NCBI GenBank assembly: GCA_002692965.1
Contig: NZNC01000023.1
Location: 1-64,000, forward strand
Origin: Haliea sp.
GTDB lineage: Bacteria > Pseudomonadota > Gammaproteobacteria > Pseudomonadales > Halieaceae
DNA length: 64,000 bases
Direction of reading: 5' to 3'
Part shown: positions 42,561-54,361 of the stretch, piece after piece
Layout: every line of letters begins with the position of its first letter
Numbering within the stretch: the stretch's first letter is position 1
Notes under the pieces: model-generated
What the model was told of the DNA's origin: nothing
The model's input: only the letters and a program-made list of their open reading frames with translations
Database searches by the model: none
Translations under genes and position numbers: made by a program

Positions 42561-45281
42561 TCACCGCATCGATAACAATTTGCGCAACTCCGGCAGGCAG
42601 GAGCCGCAGTTGGTTCCCGCCCGGGTCTGCTCGCCAAGTGCCTCGGCAGTCTGCGCGCCATCGTCGATTGCTTGTTGTATGGCCGCCTCGCGGACCTGAT
42701 GACAGCTGCACACCAGCGCGCTGCAATCGCCGCCGGCGAGGGGACGTCCCCGCGCCAGATTCAGCGCCGGCAACTCGCCGGCCGTCAGGGCATCCAGCAA
42801 CCAGCTCTCATCCACGCTCGGGCGGCCGGCACCCAGCGCCAGCCAGCAGACCGGCCGCCCCTCGCGATAGCCCACCAGTCGCAGGAACTCGCCGGCACTG
42901 TCCTCCAGCTCCGCCCAGTTCTCCACAGCCCCCTGCCAGAGCTGCTTCCAGTCGATCATGCCGGGAGGTAGACGAGCAGCCAGATTGACCAGCTGCCAGC
43001 CACCCCGCGGTCGGCGACACCAGTAGTCAACATCCGGCAGTGGCAGCCGTTCCCGGCTCAGCAGGAGGGCCTCCCAGCACGGTGACAGGGCCGTCACTGA
43101 AACCGGCGTCTGCTTGAACGCGGGTTGCCCGGAGTACGGATCCACCTGCGCGGCCACCAGGGTGTCGACCGTGGCAGCCGACGCGAAGCCGTCACTCCAG
43201 TGAATCGGCATGAAGGCCGTGCCAGGGGTCTGTCCCATTTGCGCTCGGGCCCGCACCCGGCACTGGCCCAGGGCACTGCGCACCTCCACCAGCTCGCCGT
43301 CCTCCAGGCCGCACTGCACCAGGTCATCGGGGTGCATCTCCACAAAGGGCTCGGCGATGTGCTGCAGAAGCCGGTCGCTGCGTCCGGTGCGGGTCATGCT
43401 ATGCCACTGGTCGCGGATGCGACCGGTGTTGAGCATCAGCGGGAATTCACTGTCGACAGCCACCGGCAGCGGCCGCGGCCTGCAGTCGACAAAGCGGGCA
43501 CGCCCCGAGGGCGTAAAGAAATGACCATCCGCGAACAGGCGCCCGCTTCCCCGCGGCTCGCCCAGCTCATCTCCCGTGTCCCGGTCCAGGGCATCGCCTG
43601 CCTTGTCTTCCGAACCAGCGCCCGCGCCAGAATGTCTGCCCACCGGAGTTGCCGGGCAGGGCCATTGCACCGGCCGCAGGGTGTCGTAGGCGGTATCGCT
43701 GAGCTCGGCCAGGGCACCGATATCGAAGTCCCGGCGGCCGCCATTCTCGAAGGCCGACAGCGCCGCGTGCTCGCGGAAGATGGCCGCCGGTCCCGGGTAA
43801 TCGAAGGCACCGCCGTGGCCGAGGCGACTGGCCACCTGGCAGAGCATCCACCAGTCCGGGCGCGCCTCTCCCGGCGGCGGCAGGAACGCCCGCTGGCGCG
43901 AGATGCGGCGCTCGGAATTGGTCACCGTGCCATCCTTCTCCCCCCAGGCCGCCGCGGGCAGGCGAATCCGCGCATGGCGCAGGGTATCGGTGTCATCGAC
44001 ACAGTCGGACACCACCAGGGTCTCGCAGCCGGCCAGTGCCTCGCGCACCCGGGCGCTGCGGGGCAGCGATACCGCGGGGTTGGTGGCAATCACCCAAAGA
44101 AACTTCACGTCGCCCCGAGCCACGGCCTCGAACAGCTCGACAGCGCGCAGCCCGGGGCGCGCGGGTATCTGCGAGGCGCCCCAGAAGCGCGCCACCTGCT
44201 CCCGGTGCTGCGGATTGTCCAACTCCATGTGTGCCGCCAACTGATTGGCCAGGCCACCCACTTCGCGCCCCCCCATGGCGTTGGGCTGCCCGGTAATCGA
44301 AAAGGGGCTGGCGCCGGGTCGACCGATGCGGCCGGTAGCCAGGTGGCAGTGGAGAATCGCGCTGCCCTTGTCGACGCCAGTCGTCGACTGGTTGATGCCC
44401 TGGGAGAACAGCGTGACCGTGCGCGGTGTCTGCGCAAACCAGCGGTAGAGTCGCTCCAGCTTTTCCGCTGGCAGGCCACAGGCAGCCGCGCTCGCAGCGA
44501 GATCCGGGTTGCGCGTAAGACTCGCCGCTGCCTGCGCCTTGAAGCCCTCGGTGTGCCGCCTGACAAAGTCGCGGTCGACCGCCTGCTGCCGCACCAGCCA
44601 GGCCAGCAAACCGTCGAAGAGGTAACCGTCGCTGCCCGGCGCCAAAGGCAGGTGCAGGTCCGCCAGCTCGCAGGTGGCTGTCTGCCGCGGGTCGATTACC
44701 ACCACCCGCAGCCCCGGCCGCCGCGCCTTTTCGGCGGCGATACGTTGGTACAAGACCGGGTGGGCCCAGGCCAGATTGGAGCCGGTAATCACCAGCAGGT
44801 CCGCCAGTTCCAGATCGCGATAATTGCCGGGCACCGAGTCGCTGCCGAGTACCCGCTTGTGGGCGGCAACCGCCGAGGACATGCACAGGCGGCTGTTGGT
44901 ATCGATATTGGCGCTGCCCAGGAAGCCCTTCATCAGCTTGTTGGCAACGTAGTAATCTTCGGTCAGAAGTTGACCCGAAACATAGAACGCCACGGCCTCG
45001 GGGCCGTGGCGCGTCAGAGTGCGGCGCAGGTCGCCCGCGACCTGGTCCAGGGCCTGATCCCAGGAGGCACGGCGACCCTCGATTTCCGGGTAGAGCAGGC
45101 GCCCCTCGTCACCCAGCGTTTCCCCCAGGGCACTGCCCTTGACGCACAGCCGACCGAGATTGGCGGGATGGTCGGGGTCGCCGCTGACCGCGACCTGGCC
45201 GGACTGAGCCTCGCCGACGGTCACCCGGACCCCGCAGCCGACACCGCAGTAGGGGCAGGTGGTACAGACCGCGCCGCTCAT
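42561..45281 (-). CDS. nasA: Assimilatory nitrate reductase catalytic subunit NasA
   Basis: The 906-residue molybdopterin bis-MGD enzyme has an N-terminal [4Fe-4S] motif CPYCGVGC..., with the fourth Cys in LCVKG. The Mo-bis-MGD domains follow (NSRLCMSSAV with the Cys position that ligates Mo, then TLFSQGINQST). The C-terminal 55 residues form a BFD-like [2Fe-2S] domain (CSCHQV...CGSC). There is no Tat signal, so it acts in the cytoplasm. It reduces nitrate to nitrite, which NirBD takes to ammonium. The start overlaps the flavoprotein stop (ATGA). Confidence 0.95.
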   Translation of the reverse strand: MSGAVCTTCPYCGVGCGVRVTVGEAQSGQVAVSGDPDHPANLGRLCVKGSALGETLGDEGRLLYPEIEGRRASWDQALDQVAGDLRRTLTRHGPEAVAFYVSGQLLTEDYYVANKLMKGFLGSANIDTNSRLCMSSAVAAHKRVLGSDSVPGNYRDLELADLLVITGSNLAWAHPVLYQRIAAEKARRPGLRVVVIDPRQTATCELADLHLPLAPGSDGYLFDGLLAWLVRQQAVDRDFVRRHTEGFKAQAAASLTRNPDLAASAAACGLPAEKLERLYRWFAQTPRTVTLFSQGINQSTTGVDKGSAILHCHLATGRIGRPGASPFSITGQPNAMGGREVGGLANQLAAHMELDNPQHREQVARFWGASQIPARPGLRAVELFEAVARGDVKFLWVIATNPAVSLPRSARVREALAGCETLVVSDCVDDTDTLRHARIRLPAAAWGEKDGTVTNSERRISRQRAFLPPPGEARPDWWMLCQVASRLGHGGAFDYPGPAAIFREHAALSAFENGGRRDFDIGALAELSDTAYDTLRPVQWPCPATPVGRHSGAGAGSEDKAGDALDRDTGDELGEPRGSGRLFADGHFFTPSGRARFVDCRPRPLPVAVDSEFPLMLNTGRIRDQWHSMTRTGRSDRLLQHIAEPFVEMHPDDLVQCGLEDGELVEVRSALGQCRVRARAQMGQTPGTAFMPIHWSDGFASAATVDTLVAAQVDPYSGQPAFKQTPVSVTALSPCWEALLLSRERLPLPDVDYWCRRPRGGWQLVNLAARLPPGMIDWKQLWQGAVENWAELEDSAGEFLRLVGYREGRPVCWLALGAGRPSVDESWLLDALTAGELPALNLARGRPLAGGDCSALVCSCHQVREAAIQQAIDDGAQTAEALGEQTRAGTNCGSCLPELRKLLSMR

Positions 45282-46484: not shown

Positions 46485-46868
46485 TCAGCGCTCCAGGGCC
46501 GCCGCCGATTGCGGCTGATCCGCCAGCAGGACGTCTTCGCCGGCGACCTGTACCGGCCAAGTCGGGACACGCACCCCCGGATCCTCCAGGCACTCACCGG
46601 TGCGCAGGCAGAAGTGCTGCTTGTAGACCGGCGAGGCCACCACCAGGCGACCGTCCAGGTCACCGACAATGCCGCGGGAAAGCACGTTGGCGCCGCTGCA
46701 GGGATCGAAGTTGCCAATGGCAAACACGCCCTCCGGCGTATGGAACAGGGCCACCTGGTCGCTACCCAGCCGGGCGGCGACGCCACTGCCGGGCACCAGG
46801 TCGGACAGCCTGCAGACACCCCGCCAGGCGGGCTCGGCAGACACAACACGGGCAGCTGGACTATTCAT
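46485..46868 (-). CDS. nirD: Nitrite reductase small subunit NirD
   Basis: The 127-residue Rieske-fold protein without the usual cluster ligands is typical of NirD: NFDPCSGANVLSRGIVGD and SPVYKQHFCLRTGECLEDP are the family signatures. It partners NirB in NADH-dependent nitrite reduction to ammonium. The start overlaps the nirB stop, and the end lies 1 bp before the next start. Confidence 0.95.
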   Translation of the reverse strand: MNSPAARVVSAEPAWRGVCRLSDLVPGSGVAARLGSDQVALFHTPEGVFAIGNFDPCSGANVLSRGIVGDLDGRLVVASPVYKQHFCLRTGECLEDPGVRVPTWPVQVAGEDVLLADQPQSAAALER

Positions 46869-49414
46869 CAGAGAGTCTCCTCGAGTACGCGTTGGGGCTC
46901 GTGTGCGGTGACCTCGGCCTTTTCCTCGGGACGGGCGGGGCGCTTCTGGCCGCGCTCGCGCACGTAGACGATTTGCTCGTCACCGCGCTCGTCGTTGACG
47001 AAGGGCCGGAAGCGTTTCAGCGCCTCCGGATCCTCGATGGTGCGTTTCCATTCGCAGACATAGCTGTCCACCAGGGCCTGCATCTGCGACTCCAGCTCCG
47101 CGGCGATGCCCAGGGAATCCTCCAGGATCACCGCCTGCAGGTAGGCCAGGCCACCTTCCAGGTTGTCCCGCCACACGGAGGTGCGCTGCAGGCGATCGGC
47201 GGTAGCGATGTAGAACATCAGGAAGCGGTCGATGGTGCGCACCAGCGTGGCGTCGTCCAGGTCGCTGGCGAACAGCTCGGCGTGCCGCGGCCGCATGCCG
47301 CCGTTGCCGCAGACATAGAGGTTCCAGCCCTTTTCCGTGGCGATCACGCCGACGTCCTTGCCCTGGGCTTCGGCGCACTCCCGGGTACAGCCGGAAACGG
47401 CCATCTTCAGCTTGTGGGGCGAACGGATACCGCGGTAGCGCTCTTCCAGGAAGATCGCCATGCCCACCGAGTCCTGCACGCCATAGCGACACCAGGTGGA
47501 GCCGACACAGGACTTCACCGTGCGCAGGGCCTTGCCGTAGGCGTGCCCGGATTCAAAACCGGCATCCACCAGTTCCCGCCAGATCGCCGGGAGCTGCTCC
47601 ACCCGGGCACCGAAGAGGTCGATGCGCTGGCCGCCGGTAATCTTGGTGTAGAGATCGTAGCGCTGCGCCACCTCCCCCAGGACGCACAGTTTTTCCGGGG
47701 TGATCTCCCCACCCGGCACACGGGGCACCACGGAGTAGCTGCCGTCCTTCTGCAGGTTGGCGAGGAAGTTGTCGTTGGTGTCCTGCAGGCCGACATGCCG
47801 CGGGTCGAGCACGTAGTCGTTCCAGCACGAGGCCAGGATCGAGGCCACGGCGGGCTTGCAGATCTCGCAGCCGAGGCCGCTGCCGTGGGCCTGCAGCAGG
47901 GCGTCGAAGCTGCGCAGCTCGTTTACTCGCACCAGGTGATAGAGCTCCTGGCGGCTGTAGGGAAAGTGCGCACAGAGATGGTTGGTAACCTCTACCCCCT
48001 GGCGCTTGAGCTCTGCGTCCATTACCTGCTTGACCAGGGTGCTGCAGCCGCCGCAGGTGGCGGAGGCGCGGGTTTCCGCTTTCAAGGCGCCGATCGTGGT
48101 GCAGCCGCCGCTCACCGCGGCACACAGGTCACCCTTGCTGACGTTGTTGCAGGAGCAGATCTGCGCGCTGTCGGGCAGTGCATCCACACCCAGGGCAGGC
48201 TTGCCCTCGCCTGCCGGCAGGATCAGACTCAGGGGCGCCGGCGGCAGGTCGATACCGTTCAGGCAGTATTGCAGCAGGCTGCCGTAGTCGCCGGTATCTC
48301 CCACCAGCACGGCTCCCAGGAGACGGCTGCCGTCCTCGCTGATGACCAGCTTCTTGTAGACACCGGCGACGCTGTCCTCCAGGCTGCAGCTGTGCGAGCC
48401 CGGCGTGCGCCCATGGGCGTCGCCGATGGAGCCTACCTCCACCCCCAGCAGCTTGAGCTTGGTGCTCATGTCCGCGCCGCGAAACGCCGCGTCGGCATCA
48501 CCGCAGAGCCCGGCTGCAAGCTGCCGGGCCATGTCGTAGCCCGGCGCCACCAGGCCGAAGATGCGCTGCTGCCACAGGGCCACCTCGCCGATGGCGTAGA
48601 TCGCCGGGTCCGAGGTGCGACAGCGGTCGTCGATCACCACGCCCCCGCGCTCGCCGAGCAGCAACCCGCAGTCACGCGCCAGCGCATCCCGGGGCCGAAT
48701 GCCCGCGGAAAACAGCACCAGGTCGGTTTCCAGCTCGCCATCGGCAAATACCATGCGGTGACGGCAGTCCGCACCGTCCTCGATGTGCTGGGTCGCCTTG
48801 CCGGTATGCACCTGCACACCCAGCTCCTCGATCTTGCGGCGCAGCAGCGCCCCGCCCGGGCCATCCAGCTGGACGCCCATCAATTGCGGCGCGAACTCCA
48901 CCACATGGGTTTCCAGGCCCAGGTCCTGCAGCGCCTTGGCCGCCTCGAGCCCGAGCAGGCCACCGCCGACCACCGCGCCAACGCGGCTGGTTTGAGCGGC
49001 CGCCTGTATCGCACCGAGGTCCTCCAGGGTGCGGTAGACCAGGCAGGCCTCGCGCTCGCTCCCGGGAATCGGCGGCACGAAGGGGTAGGAACCGGTCGCC
49101 AGCACCAGCTCGTCGTAGGCCACCACAGTGCCGCGGCTACCGGTGACTTCCCGGCGCTCGCGGTCGATGCACGTCGCCTCCTCGCCGATCACCAGCTTGA
49201 TTCCCTGTTCCCGGAACCATGCCATTGAGGTCAGCGCGAGGTCATCCGCCGTGGCACCGCTGAACCAGCTGCTCAGTTGCACCCGGTCATAGGCGGGCAC
49301 GGGCTCCTCGCAGAAAACCGTTATCTCGTAGGGGTGACCGCGCTCCACCATTTCCTCGAGAAAACGCTGCCCCACCATGCCGTTGCCAATCACTACCAGT
49401 CTGGGCTTGTTCAT
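46868..49414 (-). CDS. nirB: NADH nitrite reductase large subunit NirB
   Basis: The 848-residue protein has these domains in order: an FAD site VIGNGMVGQRFLEE; an NADH site GAVVGGGLLGLEAAK; a BFD-like [2Fe-2S] domain (CSCNNVSKG..., CGGC); and the siroheme/[4Fe-4S] domain with CVGSTWCRYG and CTRECAE. The ATG at 49414 has a perfect AAGGAGG. It performs the six-electron reduction of nitrite to ammonium in the cytoplasm. In this operon it is assimilatory. Confidence 0.96.
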   Translation of the reverse strand: MNKPRLVVIGNGMVGQRFLEEMVERGHPYEITVFCEEPVPAYDRVQLSSWFSGATADDLALTSMAWFREQGIKLVIGEEATCIDRERREVTGSRGTVVAYDELVLATGSYPFVPPIPGSEREACLVYRTLEDLGAIQAAAQTSRVGAVVGGGLLGLEAAKALQDLGLETHVVEFAPQLMGVQLDGPGGALLRRKIEELGVQVHTGKATQHIEDGADCRHRMVFADGELETDLVLFSAGIRPRDALARDCGLLLGERGGVVIDDRCRTSDPAIYAIGEVALWQQRIFGLVAPGYDMARQLAAGLCGDADAAFRGADMSTKLKLLGVEVGSIGDAHGRTPGSHSCSLEDSVAGVYKKLVISEDGSRLLGAVLVGDTGDYGSLLQYCLNGIDLPPAPLSLILPAGEGKPALGVDALPDSAQICSCNNVSKGDLCAAVSGGCTTIGALKAETRASATCGGCSTLVKQVMDAELKRQGVEVTNHLCAHFPYSRQELYHLVRVNELRSFDALLQAHGSGLGCEICKPAVASILASCWNDYVLDPRHVGLQDTNDNFLANLQKDGSYSVVPRVPGGEITPEKLCVLGEVAQRYDLYTKITGGQRIDLFGARVEQLPAIWRELVDAGFESGHAYGKALRTVKSCVGSTWCRYGVQDSVGMAIFLEERYRGIRSPHKLKMAVSGCTRECAEAQGKDVGVIATEKGWNLYVCGNGGMRPRHAELFASDLDDATLVRTIDRFLMFYIATADRLQRTSVWRDNLEGGLAYLQAVILEDSLGIAAELESQMQALVDSYVCEWKRTIEDPEALKRFRPFVNDERGDEQIVYVRERGQKRPARPEEKAEVTAHEPQRVLEETL

Positions 49415-49425
49415 GCTCGCCTCCT

Positions 49426-50301
49426 TCACAAGTCACTGCCGACGGCGCGGCGTTGGTCTGTCGCGCCCGCGGACGCCCCGGCCTCTGCACGGCCTGACGC
49501 CGCCGGCATGGCCTCCACCTTGCGCTGCTTTTCATAGAGAAAACGCAGGACCTCGCGGCGCAGGCGGGTGTAGTGCGTATCGCCCGCCAGTTCCAGGCGG
49601 TCCCGCGGACGCGGCAGGTCGATTTCCAGCACTTCGCCGACCGTCGCCGAGGGGCCATTGGTCATCATCACGATGCGGTCCGAAAGCAGTACCGCCTCGT
49701 CCACGTCGTGAGTGATCATGATCACGGTGTTATTGAGGTCGCGCTGGATCTCCATCAGCGTGTCCTGGAGGTGGGCGCGGGTCAGGGCATCCAGGGCGCC
49801 GAAGGGCTCGTCCATCAGCAGCACACGCGGCTGCATCGCCAGGGCCCGGGCGACCCCCACGCGCTGTTTCATGCCCCCGGAAATCTCGTCCGGTCGCTTG
49901 TCGGCGGCATCGCTCATGTGCACCAGCGCCAGGTGGTGGTCGACCCACTCGCGCATCTCGGCGCGGCTCTTGCGGCGCCGGAACACCTGCCGCACCGCGA
50001 GTGCCACGTTCTCGCGCACACTGAGCCAGGGCAGCAGGGAATGGTTCTGGAACACGACGGCACGCTCCGGGCCGGGCTCCCGCACCTCGCGCCCGTCGAG
50101 AATGATGCCCCCCGCGGAGGCCTGCAGCAGGCCGCCCACCAGGTTGAGTACCGTAGACTTGCCACATCCCGAGTGGCCAATCAGAGAGACAAATTCCCCC
50201 TCGCGGATCTTCAGGTTGACGTCGCGCAGGGCCTCGAACTCGCCCCGGGGCGTGGGAAAGCGCATGTCGACCGCGGATATATCCAGCAGGCACTTACTCA
50301 T
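49426..50301 (-). CDS. nrtD: Nitrate ABC transporter ATP-binding protein
   Basis: The 291-residue ATPase has Walker A GHSGCGKST, signature ISGGMKQRVG and Walker B LLMDEPFGALD. It matches the NrtD/SsuB group, with the VVFQNHSLLPWLSVRENV Q-loop. An Ala-rich tail of about 35 residues is extra. It starts 1 bp after nrtB and energises nitrate/nitrite uptake through NrtB. Confidence 0.92.
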   Translation of the reverse strand: MSKCLLDISAVDMRFPTPRGEFEALRDVNLKIREGEFVSLIGHSGCGKSTVLNLVGGLLQASAGGIILDGREVREPGPERAVVFQNHSLLPWLSVRENVALAVRQVFRRRKSRAEMREWVDHHLALVHMSDAADKRPDEISGGMKQRVGVARALAMQPRVLLMDEPFGALDALTRAHLQDTLMEIQRDLNNTVIMITHDVDEAVLLSDRIVMMTNGPSATVGEVLEIDLPRPRDRLELAGDTHYTRLRREVLRFLYEKQRKVEAMPAASGRAEAGASAGATDQRRAVGSDL

Positions 50302-50302
50302 C

Positions 50303-51295
50303 TCAGTCTCCTTGTTGCCAGTCGACCCGGCGCTGCAGCAGCAACATCAACCGGTCGAGCAGAAAGCCGATCAGACCGATGGCGAGGACCGCCACCATGA
50401 TCCGGCTGAGGGATTGGGAACTGCCGTTCTGGAACTCGTCCCAGACGAACTTGCCGAGCCCGGGGTTCTGCGCCAGCATTTCGGCGGCGATCAGCACCAT
50501 CCAGGCAATGCCCAGGGACACCCGCAAGCCGGTGAAGATCATGGGGATTGCCGAGGGCAGGACGATCCGCCACACATGGCTGAACCAGCCCAGCCGCAGC
50601 ACCCGGCTGACGTTGTCCAGGTCCGGACTGACGGCCTTCACACCCACCGCGGTGTTGATCAGGGTCGGCCACAGGGAACACAGCGTGACGGTGATCGCCG
50701 ACACCACGAAGGCGCGCTCAAACAGCGGGTCATCGCCGGTGTAGACCGCAGAGACCACCAGGGTCACCAGGGGCAGCCAGGCCAGCGGCGAGACCGGGCG
50801 AAACAGCTGCACCAGCGGGTTGACCGCACGATTCACGAAGGGGCTCAGGCCCATGACGATGCCCAGGGGAACCGCGATCACCGAGGCCAGCAGAAAGCCC
50901 GCAAGGACGGTGCCCAGACTGGTCAGGATCTGATCCAGGAAGGTCGGTGCGCCGGTGTAGCTGCGCCAGGTCGGCTGCCAGTCCGGCTGGTCCCGCAGGC
51001 GCTCGGCGATACGCTGCTCCTGCCGCTGGTAGAAGGCCGCGGCCCGCTCCCGCTCGCGCTGGTGCTCCCGCAACAGATTGGCCGCCTGCTCCGCCACCGC
51101 CACGGGGCCGGGAAACGCGCCCAGGGAGGTGTCCACCCGCTGCGCCGCGAATTGCCAGAGCAGCAGGAACAGTGCCAGTCCCAGCAGGGGTGCACCCAGG
51201 GTGCGCAGCAGCCACTGCCCGCTCTGTCGCAGCCCTTCGCGATCGCGATCCGGCAGGCGGGCATGCAGCTGACTGACAAGTTGCGAAGTATTCAT
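50303..51295 (-). CDS. nrtB: Nitrate ABC transporter permease
   Basis: The 330-residue inner-membrane protein has about seven hydrophobic segments and the BPD-type EAA-like loop (LRLGWFSHVWRIVLPSAIPMIFTGLRVSLGIAW). It is longer than basic NrtB because of an insertion after the first helix (about 75-115) rich in Arg and Glu. That insertion may reach the periplasmic binding protein or be structural. GGAG lies 8 nt upstream of the ATG. Confidence 0.92.
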   Translation of the reverse strand: MNTSQLVSQLHARLPDRDREGLRQSGQWLLRTLGAPLLGLALFLLLWQFAAQRVDTSLGAFPGPVAVAEQAANLLREHQRERERAAAFYQRQEQRIAERLRDQPDWQPTWRSYTGAPTFLDQILTSLGTVLAGFLLASVIAVPLGIVMGLSPFVNRAVNPLVQLFRPVSPLAWLPLVTLVVSAVYTGDDPLFERAFVVSAITVTLCSLWPTLINTAVGVKAVSPDLDNVSRVLRLGWFSHVWRIVLPSAIPMIFTGLRVSLGIAWMVLIAAEMLAQNPGLGKFVWDEFQNGSSQSLSRIMVAVLAIGLIGFLLDRLMLLLQRRVDWQQGD

Positions 51296-51322: not shown

Positions 51323-52687
51323 TCAGGGCTGCTGATCGCCCTTGAGGCCGATGGGAAAGGCGTCGAGGTAGGCATTCGGCGCCGTGGCGTCAAAGGGAAT
51401 GCCATCGATGAAGGTGGTGTGGGCCACCGGCCGGATACCGCTCTCGGTCTCGAAATCGGGAAAGTCCTGCGGCGACATCAGACCCTCGTCGATCAGGGCC
51501 TCCGCCGCCTGGCGGTAGATCTCGGGGCGGAAGACCTTGCGCGCGGTTTCCAGGTACCAGTCGTCTGGTTTCGCGTCGCTGATCTGTCCCCAGCGGCGCA
51601 TCTGGGTGAGGTACCAGATCGCGTCCGAGTAGTAGGGGTAGGTCGCGTGATAACGGAAGAAGACATTGAAGTCGGGCGCCGGGCGCACATCCCCTTTCTC
51701 GTACTCGAAGACCCCGGTCATGCTGTTGGCGATGACCTCGTAGTCGGCGCCCACATAGTGCGAGCGGGAGATCAGTCGCGCAGCCTCCTCGCGGTTGGCG
51801 TTACTGCGCTCGTCCAGCCAGTGCCCGGCGCGGATCAGGGCCTTCACCACCCGCACGTGCGTGTTGGGGTACTGCGCGGCCCAGGCCTGGGTAACGCCGA
51901 AGACCTTCTCGGAGATGTTGTTGCGGATGGCCAGGTCGGCCACCACCGGGACACCGATGCCGCGGAATACCGCCTGCTGGTTCCAGGGCTCGCCGACGCA
52001 ATAGCCGTGGATGGTGCCCGCGTCCAGGGTCGCCGGCATCTGCGGCGGCGGCGTGACCGAAATCAGCACATCCGCGTCCAGGGTGCCGGCGGTATCGCCG
52101 CGCCGGGGCGCGTAATAGCCCGGGTGGATGCCGCCAGCCGCCAGCCAGTAACGCAACTCGTAGTTGTGGGTCGACACCGGGAACACCATGCCCATGCGGA
52201 AAGTTTCTCCGCCCTGGCGGTGAGCCTGGATGACCGGACGCAAGGCGGCGGCGCTGATCGGATGCACCGGCTTGCCATCCTGGTGAGGCACCTGCGGTTT
52301 CATGGCGTCCCAGACATCGTTGGCCACGGTGCAGGCATTGCCGTTCAGGTCCATGGTGAAGGCGGTAATGATGTGTGACTGCGTGCCGTAACCCAGGGTC
52401 GCCGCCAGGGGCTGGCCGGAGAGCATGTGGGCGCCGTCGAGCTCGCCGGAAATGGTGCGGTCCAGCAGAACCTTCCAGTTGGCCTGAGCCTCCAGTGTGA
52501 CGTACAGCCCCTCCTCCTCGAAGAAGCCCTTGTCCCGCGCCACGGCCAGGGGCGCCATATCGGTAAGCTTGATGAAGCCGAAGGTCAATTCCGCTTTCTC
52601 GGGATAACCCAGCGCCTGCAGGGCAGCACTGCCCAGGGACAGCGCTGTCGCCAGCAGTATGCGCAGGGTGGCAAGGGGTCGCTTCAT
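51323..52687 (-). CDS. nrtA: Nitrate/nitrite periplasmic binding protein (NrtA/NasF family)
   Basis: The 454-residue protein has a Sec signal (cut near LQA-LG), then the CmpA/NrtA-family fold: [41 protein letters not shown], and [13 protein letters not shown]. It captures nitrate in the periplasm for NrtBD. The ATG at 52687 has GAGGAG upstream. It is the first structural gene after the sigma-54/ANTAR leader, which is the position of nasF in Klebsiella. Confidence 0.94.
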
Positions 52688-52713: not shown

Positions 52714-52762
52714 AAAAAAAAGGCGCCCACGACACGGAAGGTTTTTCCGTGTGGTGAGCGCC
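52714..52762 (-). terminator. Intrinsic terminator in the nas leader (attenuator)
   Basis: On the minus strand, an 18-nt arm starting GGCGCTCACC pairs with an arm ending GGGCGCC around an AAACC loop (one mismatch and one G-U pair). Eight T follow. It lies 27 nt upstream of nrtA within the leader and would stop transcription unless the second ANTAR hairpin forms, which uses the same bases. Confidence 0.95.
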
Positions 52763-52824
52763 ATTGCTCGGTCGCTGGCCCCTGGGGACCCGGTCTGTCT
52801 GCAAGCCCGGACGCCGTTGTCCGG
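52756..52824 (-). promoter_or_regulatory. ANTAR-target dual hairpin (NasR-binding antiterminator RNA)
   Basis: Hairpin 1 (52807-52824) is CCGGAC-AACGGC-GTCCGG. Hairpin 2 (52756-52769) is GAGC-AATGGC-GCTC. Both hexaloops have A at position 1 and G at position 4, the reported ANTAR recognition rule. Hairpin 2 and the terminator's first arm share 52756-52762, so they exclude each other. NasR bound to nitrate should hold hairpin 2 and permit read-through. Confidence 0.88.
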
Positions 52825-52839
52825 ATTCACATTTGTTCG

Positions 52840-52856
52840 AGCAAAGCGCGTGCCAG
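52840..52856 (-). promoter_or_regulatory. Sigma-54 promoter of the nas operon
   Basis: CTGGCACG-CGCT-TTGCT matches the RpoN consensus YTGGCACG-N4-TTGCW at every fixed position, with GG and GC separated by 10 bp. The predicted transcript start is about 52828, a few bases before ANTAR hairpin 1. Confidence 0.92.
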
Positions 52857-52970: not shown

Positions 52971-54215
52971 CTAGCCATCGAAAACCTCCGACAGGTTGAG
53001 GACCGCCCGCGCCACTTCCGGCAGCTTGCAGCCCTGGTTCATCGCCATGCGGCGGAGCAGGCTGTGCGCCTCGTGTTCCGAAAGGCCGCGGTGTCGAATC
53101 AGCAGGGCCTTGGCGCGGTCCACCAGCCGGCGCTCGGCGAGCGCCGTGCGCGCCTGCTCGAGCGCTTCCTGCAGGTCGGCCAGCCGGCTGGTCTGCTCTT
53201 CCAACAGATCAATCAGGGAGCGCCGCATGCCGGGTCGCAGCGCCTCGCCGTCGCCGACAAGCGCCGCCTCCGGCTGCTCCGACAGACGGTCCAGCTGGGC
53301 CAGGGCATGCACCTCCCGGTGGCAGGCGGCAAACTCCCGGCGCGACGCCGCCAGACTCTCCTCCGCGGCGTGGCGCAGATGCAGCGACAGTTGATCCTCC
53401 ACCGCCTTCATGGCATCGATGCGCGCGGTACAGACGGCAAACCAGGTCTCACTGAGATCGGCGTCCGACGAGGATTCCGACTGCCGCGCCACGACGTGAG
53501 CGCGCAGGTCGTCCAGGGCCTGCTGGCTGGATACGTCGGCAAGCCACGACTGCCAGACCGCCAGGCTGCCCGCGTCGGCAAAGCGCGAGAAGACCTCCAA
53601 GCTGCGGCGCTGGCCCTCCTGCAAGACGACCAGCTTCTCGCTGCGCTGGGCACACAGCCGGCCGCTGGTCAGGCGCAAGGCACCCAGGGCGCGCTCCTGA
53701 CCGGCAAGCTCCTTCCCCTGCATGAAGTGAAGCAGCGCGACCAGCGCCCGCGTCACCGCGGAATCGGTCGCGGTATCCGCGATGTCAAACACCACGCCCA
53801 GCAGGTCCTGGATCAGTCCGGTGTAAAAGTCGTAGATCCGATCCTCGTCCATTTCCAGGCGCGCGGTGCCACGCAAAATCGCATCGCGTCGACCGAGCTG
53901 GTGGAGCACTCGCGCCAGCCGGCTGAGCAGGTGGCTGCCCGCCTGCTGCAGGGCCTCGTCGCGCTCCAGGTCCGCCAGCAGCTGATCGAAGGCCAGCACC
54001 TGCTGGTCCGTGGCGCTCACCAGGTTCCGCCGCTGCTGGCGGAAACGCTGCCCCCTCGAGCCGGTAAAAATGCCCGAGGCGCCACGCTCGCGCTGCAGGG
54101 CATGCACCAGGCCACTGACAATCACCACCAGGCGCACCCGCGGCAGCAAATGCTGCAGGGTGCGTATCTCACTCTGGCGGGCAGCAATCAGGAAATCAGC
54201 GGCGGACTGGGACAT
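52971..54215 (-). CDS. nasR: Nitrate-responsive antiterminator NasR (NIT-ANTAR)
   Basis: The 414-residue protein has an N-terminal all-helical NIT nitrate/nitrite-sensing domain (about 35-290, with LVHALQRERGASGIF). A coiled linker leads to a C-terminal ANTAR RNA-binding domain (about 345-410: RRLVDRAKALLIRH, then AHSLLRRMAMNQG). NasR binds nitrate and stops attenuation in the nas leader. The ATG at 54215 is the best start although no clear ribosome site precedes it. The dual hairpin and terminator it should control begin about 150 bp beyond its stop. Confidence 0.93.
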   Translation of the reverse strand: MSQSAADFLIAARQSEIRTLQHLLPRVRLVVIVSGLVHALQRERGASGIFTGSRGQRFRQQRRNLVSATDQQVLAFDQLLADLERDEALQQAGSHLLSRLARVLHQLGRRDAILRGTARLEMDEDRIYDFYTGLIQDLLGVVFDIADTATDSAVTRALVALLHFMQGKELAGQERALGALRLTSGRLCAQRSEKLVVLQEGQRRSLEVFSRFADAGSLAVWQSWLADVSSQQALDDLRAHVVARQSESSSDADLSETWFAVCTARIDAMKAVEDQLSLHLRHAAEESLAASRREFAACHREVHALAQLDRLSEQPEAALVGDGEALRPGMRRSLIDLLEEQTSRLADLQEALEQARTALAERRLVDRAKALLIRHRGLSEHEAHSLLRRMAMNQGCKLPEVARAVLNLSEVFDG

Positions 54216-54361
54216 GGAGGCATCGCAAAACAGTGGACATAATCTTGACGATGCAAGGAGCGGGCCAGCACACCGACACGGCAATGCCGATGGCCTGGAC
54301 TCGCTGCCGGCGTTATCATGGCGTCAGGTCCAGGCCTGACGACACGCAGCAGGAGTAGAGT

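Follow-up and report, generated by a model that had tools for sequence, protein, structure and literature searches.

The 64,000-nucleotide stretch of the Haliea sp. genome analysed here (the window) encodes, on its minus strand, a NIT-ANTAR protein followed by an operon for nitrate assimilation. The intergenic region between the two raises the question of whether the operon is governed by an antiterminated leader RNA of the kind known from Klebsiella nasF, as an earlier note on this DNA had claimed. Our reading is that the leader and nasR very probably form a switch with two inputs that controls the nrtABC-nirBD-nasA operon, with the parts being observed and the regulation being what we infer from them. 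The leader occupies the nasR-nrtA intergenic region of the minus strand, and its elements come in the order NtrC-like sites, promoter, first hairpin (P1), linker, second hairpin (P2) and terminator:

52950-52934, minus strand: candidate NtrC-like enhancer site TGCACAGCGCTGGTGCG, one mismatch to TGCAC-N7-GTGCA
52937-52921, minus strand: second, weaker candidate NtrC-like site TGCGCACAGAGCGTGCG, two mismatches, overlapping the first
52855-52841, minus strand: sigma-54 promoter TGGCAC-GCGCT-TTGC (-24/-12), read in the sequence and re-derived by script
52829 (or 52830), minus strand: predicted transcription start, by arithmetic, 12 nt past the -12 C
52824-52807, minus strand: P1 hairpin CCGGAC-AACGGC-GTCCGG, hexaloop AACGGC, closing C:G, supported by covariation
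52769-52756, minus strand: P2 hairpin GAGC-AATGGC-GCTC, hexaloop AATGGC, closing C:G, antiterminator element, supported by covariation
52762-52722, minus strand: terminator GGCGCTCAC-c-ACACGGAA-AAACC-TTCCGTGT-c-GTGGGCGCC, 17-bp stem, inverted repeat I1, covariation in the outer stem
52721-52714, minus strand: T8 tract TTTTTTTT, directly after the terminator stem, read in the sequence

Direct reading, scripts and a repeat search showed every coordinate of the earlier note to be correct. Both claimed hexaloops are present with A1 and G4, each closed by C:G; the terminator with its eight T is there as described; and the overlap of the second hairpin with the terminator is exactly as claimed, the seven bases in common (52762-52756) belonging at once to the 5' arm of the terminator and to the loop end plus 3' arm of P2. 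P1 (-11.2 kcal/mol; pairing probability about 0.9-1) is extended by an extra T.G pair at 52825/52806. The linker carries a small hairpin of its own. P2, with a stem of only 4 bp, is marginally stable alone (-4.0 kcal/mol), and the energy of the terminator stem is -29.5 kcal/mol. Tandem A1/G4 hexaloops with closing C:G, a terminator that excludes P2 and an ANTAR protein encoded in the same genome are all found here, which places the leader among ANTAR attenuators. The general dual-hairpin model of such attenuators, as far as the excerpted text of PMC3369931 presents it, is that of Ramesh and colleagues.

Mutual exclusion, for which folding of the minus-strand RNA had been proposed as a check, is borne out: P2 and the terminator cannot coexist. 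The best fold of RNA 52829-52714 is the terminator (-54.0 kcal/mol), and forcing P1 and P2 gives -41.7 kcal/mol. In the growing transcript P1 has a probability of 0.88-1.00, and P2 reaches only 0.04-0.21 before the 3' arm of the terminator exists and vanishes once that arm appears. Folding also indicates that P2 is outcompeted by a local rival hairpin in the naked RNA. Considering the terminator energy together with the low probability of P2, the leader is therefore expected to be off by default, with P2 in need of a clamp. NasR would be the obvious one.

A survey of one genome per species (84,980 species), with 21 aligned NasR sequences as the query, returned at least 538 relatives, and 80 loci were kept. 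A scanner that relied on P1, P2 and an overlapping terminator, and ignored the promoter, detected 55 leaders, spread over 48 of 110 loci (window locus included), versus 2 in mononucleotide-shuffled copies. It superseded a version whose strict terminator requirement had yielded only 13 leaders, in 12 of 80 loci. Setting aside five leaders with a promoter score below 19 and one, L095, for which the wrong P1 had been chosen, left a set of 49. Alignment A2 holds 34 of these (redundant and long rows and one odd row were removed), the window row being the window reference. The ten pairs of P1 and P2 form in 96.4% of the cells of A2, with both-side changes at 8 of the 10, compared with 31-50% formed when partners are shifted by 1-3 columns; the outer terminator stem, nine pairs, is formed in 94.8% of cells, with both-side changes at 6 of the 9 (slid control, 37-59%), all these pair counts resting on leaders that the scanner selected in part because they pair. 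Neither the promoter nor the ANTAR co-occurrence presented below is subject to that bias. Column 107, in the 3' arm of P2, combines with column 98 of P2 as AU 22, GC 10 and GU 2 times, and with column 163 of the terminator as UA 16, CG 9, UG 8 and other 1. The base in this column thus retains pairing with either of two competing partners, the hallmark of a switch whose folds exclude each other.

The consensus RpoN promoter claimed for the locus turned out to be a perfect match (22/22) to TGGCAC-N5-TTGC, which we take to be the sigma-54 consensus, with the -24 GG and -12 GC at the right spacing. P1 starts at +4 by arithmetic, in agreement with the claim that hairpin 1 begins a few bases past the predicted start. 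This placement is ordinary and common among such leaders, P1 being at most 10 nt from the predicted start in 27 of the 49. A sigma-54 score of at least 19 was found upstream of 50 of the 55 scanner leaders, versus 218 of 20,000 random 60-nt stretches. Two candidate NtrC-like sites, scored against what is presumably the NtrC consensus (TGCAC-N7-GTGCA), would complete the promoter, the centre of the stronger one lying ~113 bp upstream of the predicted start. Such a site, with up to two mismatches, is present upstream in 35 of the 48 other leaders and in 7.9% of control stretches. The genome encodes one RpoN and one NtrC (743.2 bits for NtrC, cut-off 558.6).

The genes on either side had been named as nasR (NIT-ANTAR) upstream and nrtA downstream, and both names hold:

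52971-54284, minus strand: nasR, NIT-ANTAR nitrate-responsive antiterminator, PF08376 156.6 bits, PF03861 66.7 bits
51323-52687, minus strand: nrtA, nitrate ABC transporter substrate-binding protein, PF13379 296 bits, ATG at 52687
50303-51295, minus strand: nrtB, permease, PF00528
49426-50301, minus strand: nrtC, nitrate ABC transporter ATPase, TIGR01184 357.2 bits, cut-off 291.8
46868-49429, minus strand: nirB, nitrite reductase large subunit, PF07992, PF01077, PF04324, PF03460
45278-46868, minus strand: NirB-N-terminal-like FAD reductase (PF07992), overlapped by a NirD-like ORF at 46485-46868 (by eye)
42561-45281, minus strand: nasA, assimilatory nitrate reductase-like molybdoenzyme, PF00384, PF01568, PF04324

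The NasC/NasA models match the product of 42561-45281 below their cut-offs. Both NasR domains, NIT and ANTAR, score above the Pfam curated cut-offs, and among solved structures the sole full-length relative is Klebsiella NasR (4akk; phmmer E 7.9e-36). Judged by sequence, Pfam and 4akk settle the protein family. Full-length relatives in the same order are ~30-42% identical to the window NasR. An ANTAR search of the genome gave one match, this protein. Covariance model R1, built with the window included, gives the leader a partly circular 57.8 bits, and we relied instead on R2, built from 33 other leaders with the window held out. R2 matches the genome once, at the window leader (50.4 bits, E 1.8e-9; the next match has E 0.37). 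The leader therefore seems to be the sole target of the sole ANTAR protein.

The best characterized counterpart is the nasF leader of Klebsiella oxytoca with its NasR (Chai and Stewart 1998, 1999, as cited in the excerpted part of PMC3369931). Excerpts of PMC7496416 report that K. oxytoca NasR binds nasF P1P2 at about 1 uM with nitrate, that read-through with NasR is 52% with nitrate versus 5% without, and that SELEX revealed a preference for closing C:G, A1 and G4. The window resembles nasF in having a NIT-ANTAR protein, two C:G-closed A1/G4 hairpins, a terminator overlapping P2 and a nitrate-assimilation operon. It differs in belonging to another bacterial family and in an operon that carries nrtABC-nirBD-nasA. 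The Klebsiella nas genes are under NtrC and NasR, with nasR there replacing nasTS, according to the excerpted part of PMC5424462, in parallel to the control proposed for the window leader. The EutV and AmiR leaders, as excerpted in PMC3369931, likewise have dual A1/G4 hexaloop hairpins and an overlapping terminator, but their signals are ethanolamine and amides. A 2025 survey (PMC12316311, in excerpt) predicts sigma-54 promoters at proteobacterial nitrate transporter and ANTAR genes. What is seen in the window agrees with these published accounts.

The mutational residues of K. oxytoca NasR named in the excerpts of PMC7496416 are R340, K341, K345, K347 and W362. Alignment to 4akk places R385, R386, R390, K392 and H407 of the window NasR at these positions. 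W362 is required for RNA binding in Klebsiella NasR (PMC7496416, excerpt), and His stands in its place in 9 of the 21 aligned NasR sequences, the window's included. This His is a reason for caution about the predicted RNA binding of the window NasR. By homology, NasR binding, a nitrate response and NtrC dependence may be expected at the window leader.

The proposed sequence of events is as follows. Under nitrogen limitation, NtrC would activate the sigma-54 promoter, and RNA polymerase would make P1 within the first nucleotides. Unaided, the RNA would go on to fold into the 17-bp terminator, taking up the 3' arm of P2 together with the end of its loop, and by default transcription would end after about 116 nt. 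With nitrate or nitrite bound by its NIT domain, NasR would use its ANTAR domains to hold P1 and P2. This clamp would keep 52762-52756 from the terminator, and the operon would be read.

How widespread this design is can be judged from the surveyed loci. R1 finds 84 leaders in 69 of the 80 NasR loci (E up to 0.00036), these being the best of 98 matches, with 14 dropped (E 0.0025-0.057); the remaining 11 of the 80 have no R1 leader at E 0.001 or better. A sigma-54 score of at least 19 accompanies 79 of the 84. The first window-like gene after these leaders is NrtA for 56, NirB or its N-terminal paralogue for 24 and NasA for 1, with none for 3. NIT-ANTAR nas loci of gamma- and betaproteobacteria usually combine a sigma-54 promoter with an ANTAR attenuator; the arrangement is no rarity of a single lineage. 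The window leader is a well-formed instance of the already known Klebsiella nasF kind, not a new kind. The claim that the locus follows the Klebsiella nasR/nasF logic in a different lineage is supported by its NIT-ANTAR protein, its A1/G4 loops, the covarying P2 and terminator, and the nrtA-type gene behind 56 of the 84 leaders.

Within the window's own order, R1 matches 91 of 390 genomes, and all 91 encode an ANTAR protein. Such a protein is found in 181 of the 390, so that the leader is present in 91 of 181, and by R1 it is present in 0 of the 209 genomes without one (Fisher p 3.7e-38, ignoring relatedness). For annotation, the gain is that same-order matches of R1 are confined to ANTAR-encoding genomes, 91 versus 0. 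Genomes with a full-length NasR match have the leader in 41 of 51 cases, while R1 finds none in the other 10, and those with other ANTAR proteins only have it in 50 of 130. The NasR tally counts matches with E up to 1e-40, which 51 of 65 genomes have; the others match over a portion of NasR, in most cases the NIT region. Three same-family R1 matches (genomes G271, G015 and G017; 27.9-31.4 bits) were not used as leaders, the scanner having seen no full architecture in them, and in the stretch fetched for G271 no annotated-looking ORF lies directly behind the match in the same direction. These matches may be real, because all three genomes encode an ANTAR protein, and they are counted among the 91.

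Within the window's family, NasR is absent from the 36 genomes searched, and 11 of the 23 same-family relatives scanned have an ANTAR protein. In one relative (L163) a receiver-ANTAR protein adjoins an NMT1-like sensor, forming a NasT-NasS pair. The window genome thus has NasR where those relatives that possess such a system, as far as seen, use NasT-NasS, and the Klebsiella nasF logic is supported here in a lineage whose sampled relatives are without NasR.

Two catalogued RNA families have to be considered next to the leader. At gathering thresholds, Rfam has no match over the window. A lax search gives narK RNA (RF03032) 24.6 bits for the leader (E 0.011; gathering 43.2) and P11 (RF00625) 18.7 bits (gathering 70), so that by Rfam's rule the leader is a member of neither. 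The narK motif was reportedly described by Weinberg in 2017. Its RF03032 consensus is like the window leader in having a sigma-54 motif, a P1 with AACGGC and a final CGAC-AAAGAC-GUCG readable as P2, whereas its pairing is confined to P1, with P2 left single-stranded and the terminator lying beyond the end of the model. narK RNA reaches gathering on a NasR leader (L098, 8596-8666) and, in family f21, scores 64-73 bits in three genomes, with the ANTAR gene less than 2 kb away in two. All 8 fetched narK-match loci (from 11 and 46 matches listed) overlap R1 leader matches. By these comparisons, narK RNA matches the same kind of leader as the window's, and this catalogued cis-regulatory motif would gain a proposed mechanism, a sigma-54 start with ANTAR antitermination. 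We found no statement of narK RNA as an ANTAR leader in the open-licence literature searched.

P11 we take to be the Pseudomonas nirB leader of the NasS-NasT system. It scores 117-129 bits in three same-order genomes of family f21. The one inspected (L154) has the same parts as the window leader: a sigma-54 site, A1/G4 hairpins and a P2-overlapping terminator, with a nirB-like gene downstream. Unlike the window leader, P11 occurs in genomes that encode a single ANTAR protein and lack a NasR match, and it is catalogued as an sRNA. Marogi is said to have reported in 2024 a partner switching of nitrate sensors with P11, so the role of P11 as a NasT target may have been published already. On balance, we lean towards regarding narK RNA, P11 and the NasR/NasT leaders as one proteobacterial element, usually coupled to sigma-54/NtrC, that takes either a one-protein (NasR) or a two-protein (NasS-NasT) sensor. 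The sensor would have been exchanged in the window's family, where the relatives keep NasS-NasT, and each leader, the window's among them, would shed a short P11-like RNA whose abundance reports nitrogen limitation without nitrate.

It might be argued that the P11 precedent applies to the window more directly, with the 116-nt terminated product acting in trans as an sRNA besides, or instead of, the cis attenuator, as claimed for Pseudomonas aeruginosa P11. P11 is called an sRNA regulator of a nitrogen assimilation operon in the excerpted part of PMC12080996, and both its high scores in f21 and the parts before the nirB-like gene at L154 bring it close to the leaders described here. However, the window leader falls far short of P11 gathering, and cis pairing with the terminator, together with ANTAR recognition, accounts for its conservation, all of which makes a trans-acting product improbable. 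Harder still to credit is that the terminator merely ends the nasR transcript, or attenuates constitutively, and that the hexaloop hairpins are incidental. True, nasR ends just ~250 nt upstream and the terminator is intergenic, as this would predict, yet a promoter sits between nasR and the terminator, and two C:G-closed A1/G4 hexaloops are present. Moreover, P1 and P2 covary, and the presence of the leader in ANTAR-encoding genomes only (91/91 leader-bearing genomes, 0/209 ANTAR-less ones) would be left without a reason. The preferred reading remains the nitrate-responsive switch formed by the leader and nasR.

Several leaders depart from the arrangement in the window. Same-order ANTAR leaders at L116, L124, L131, L133, L134 and L137 lack any recognisable sigma-54 motif up to 60 nt from P1, and sigma-54 coupling is accordingly common but not universal. 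Divergent ANTAR-leader pairs, one per strand and ~300-400 bp apart, occur at L034, L039, L045, L049, L042, L032 and L101, where a single NasR probably controls both of the opposed operons. At L172-L174 (genomes G179, G128 and G096), as at L098, narK RNA matches coincide with ANTAR leaders. The Variovorax leaders (e.g. L059 and L080) have an extra hairpin, AGACC...GGTCT, just upstream of P1, which moves P1 to about +27 to +31 past the predicted start; its loop is of the A1/G4 type in some species only. In the P11 leaders at L154-L156 (minus strand, about 1640-1500), P2 is preceded by two candidate A1/G4 hairpins. At L154 these are CTTC-AACGTA-GAAG and CCCG-AGAGAA-CGGG, giving three ANTAR-type hairpins in a row.
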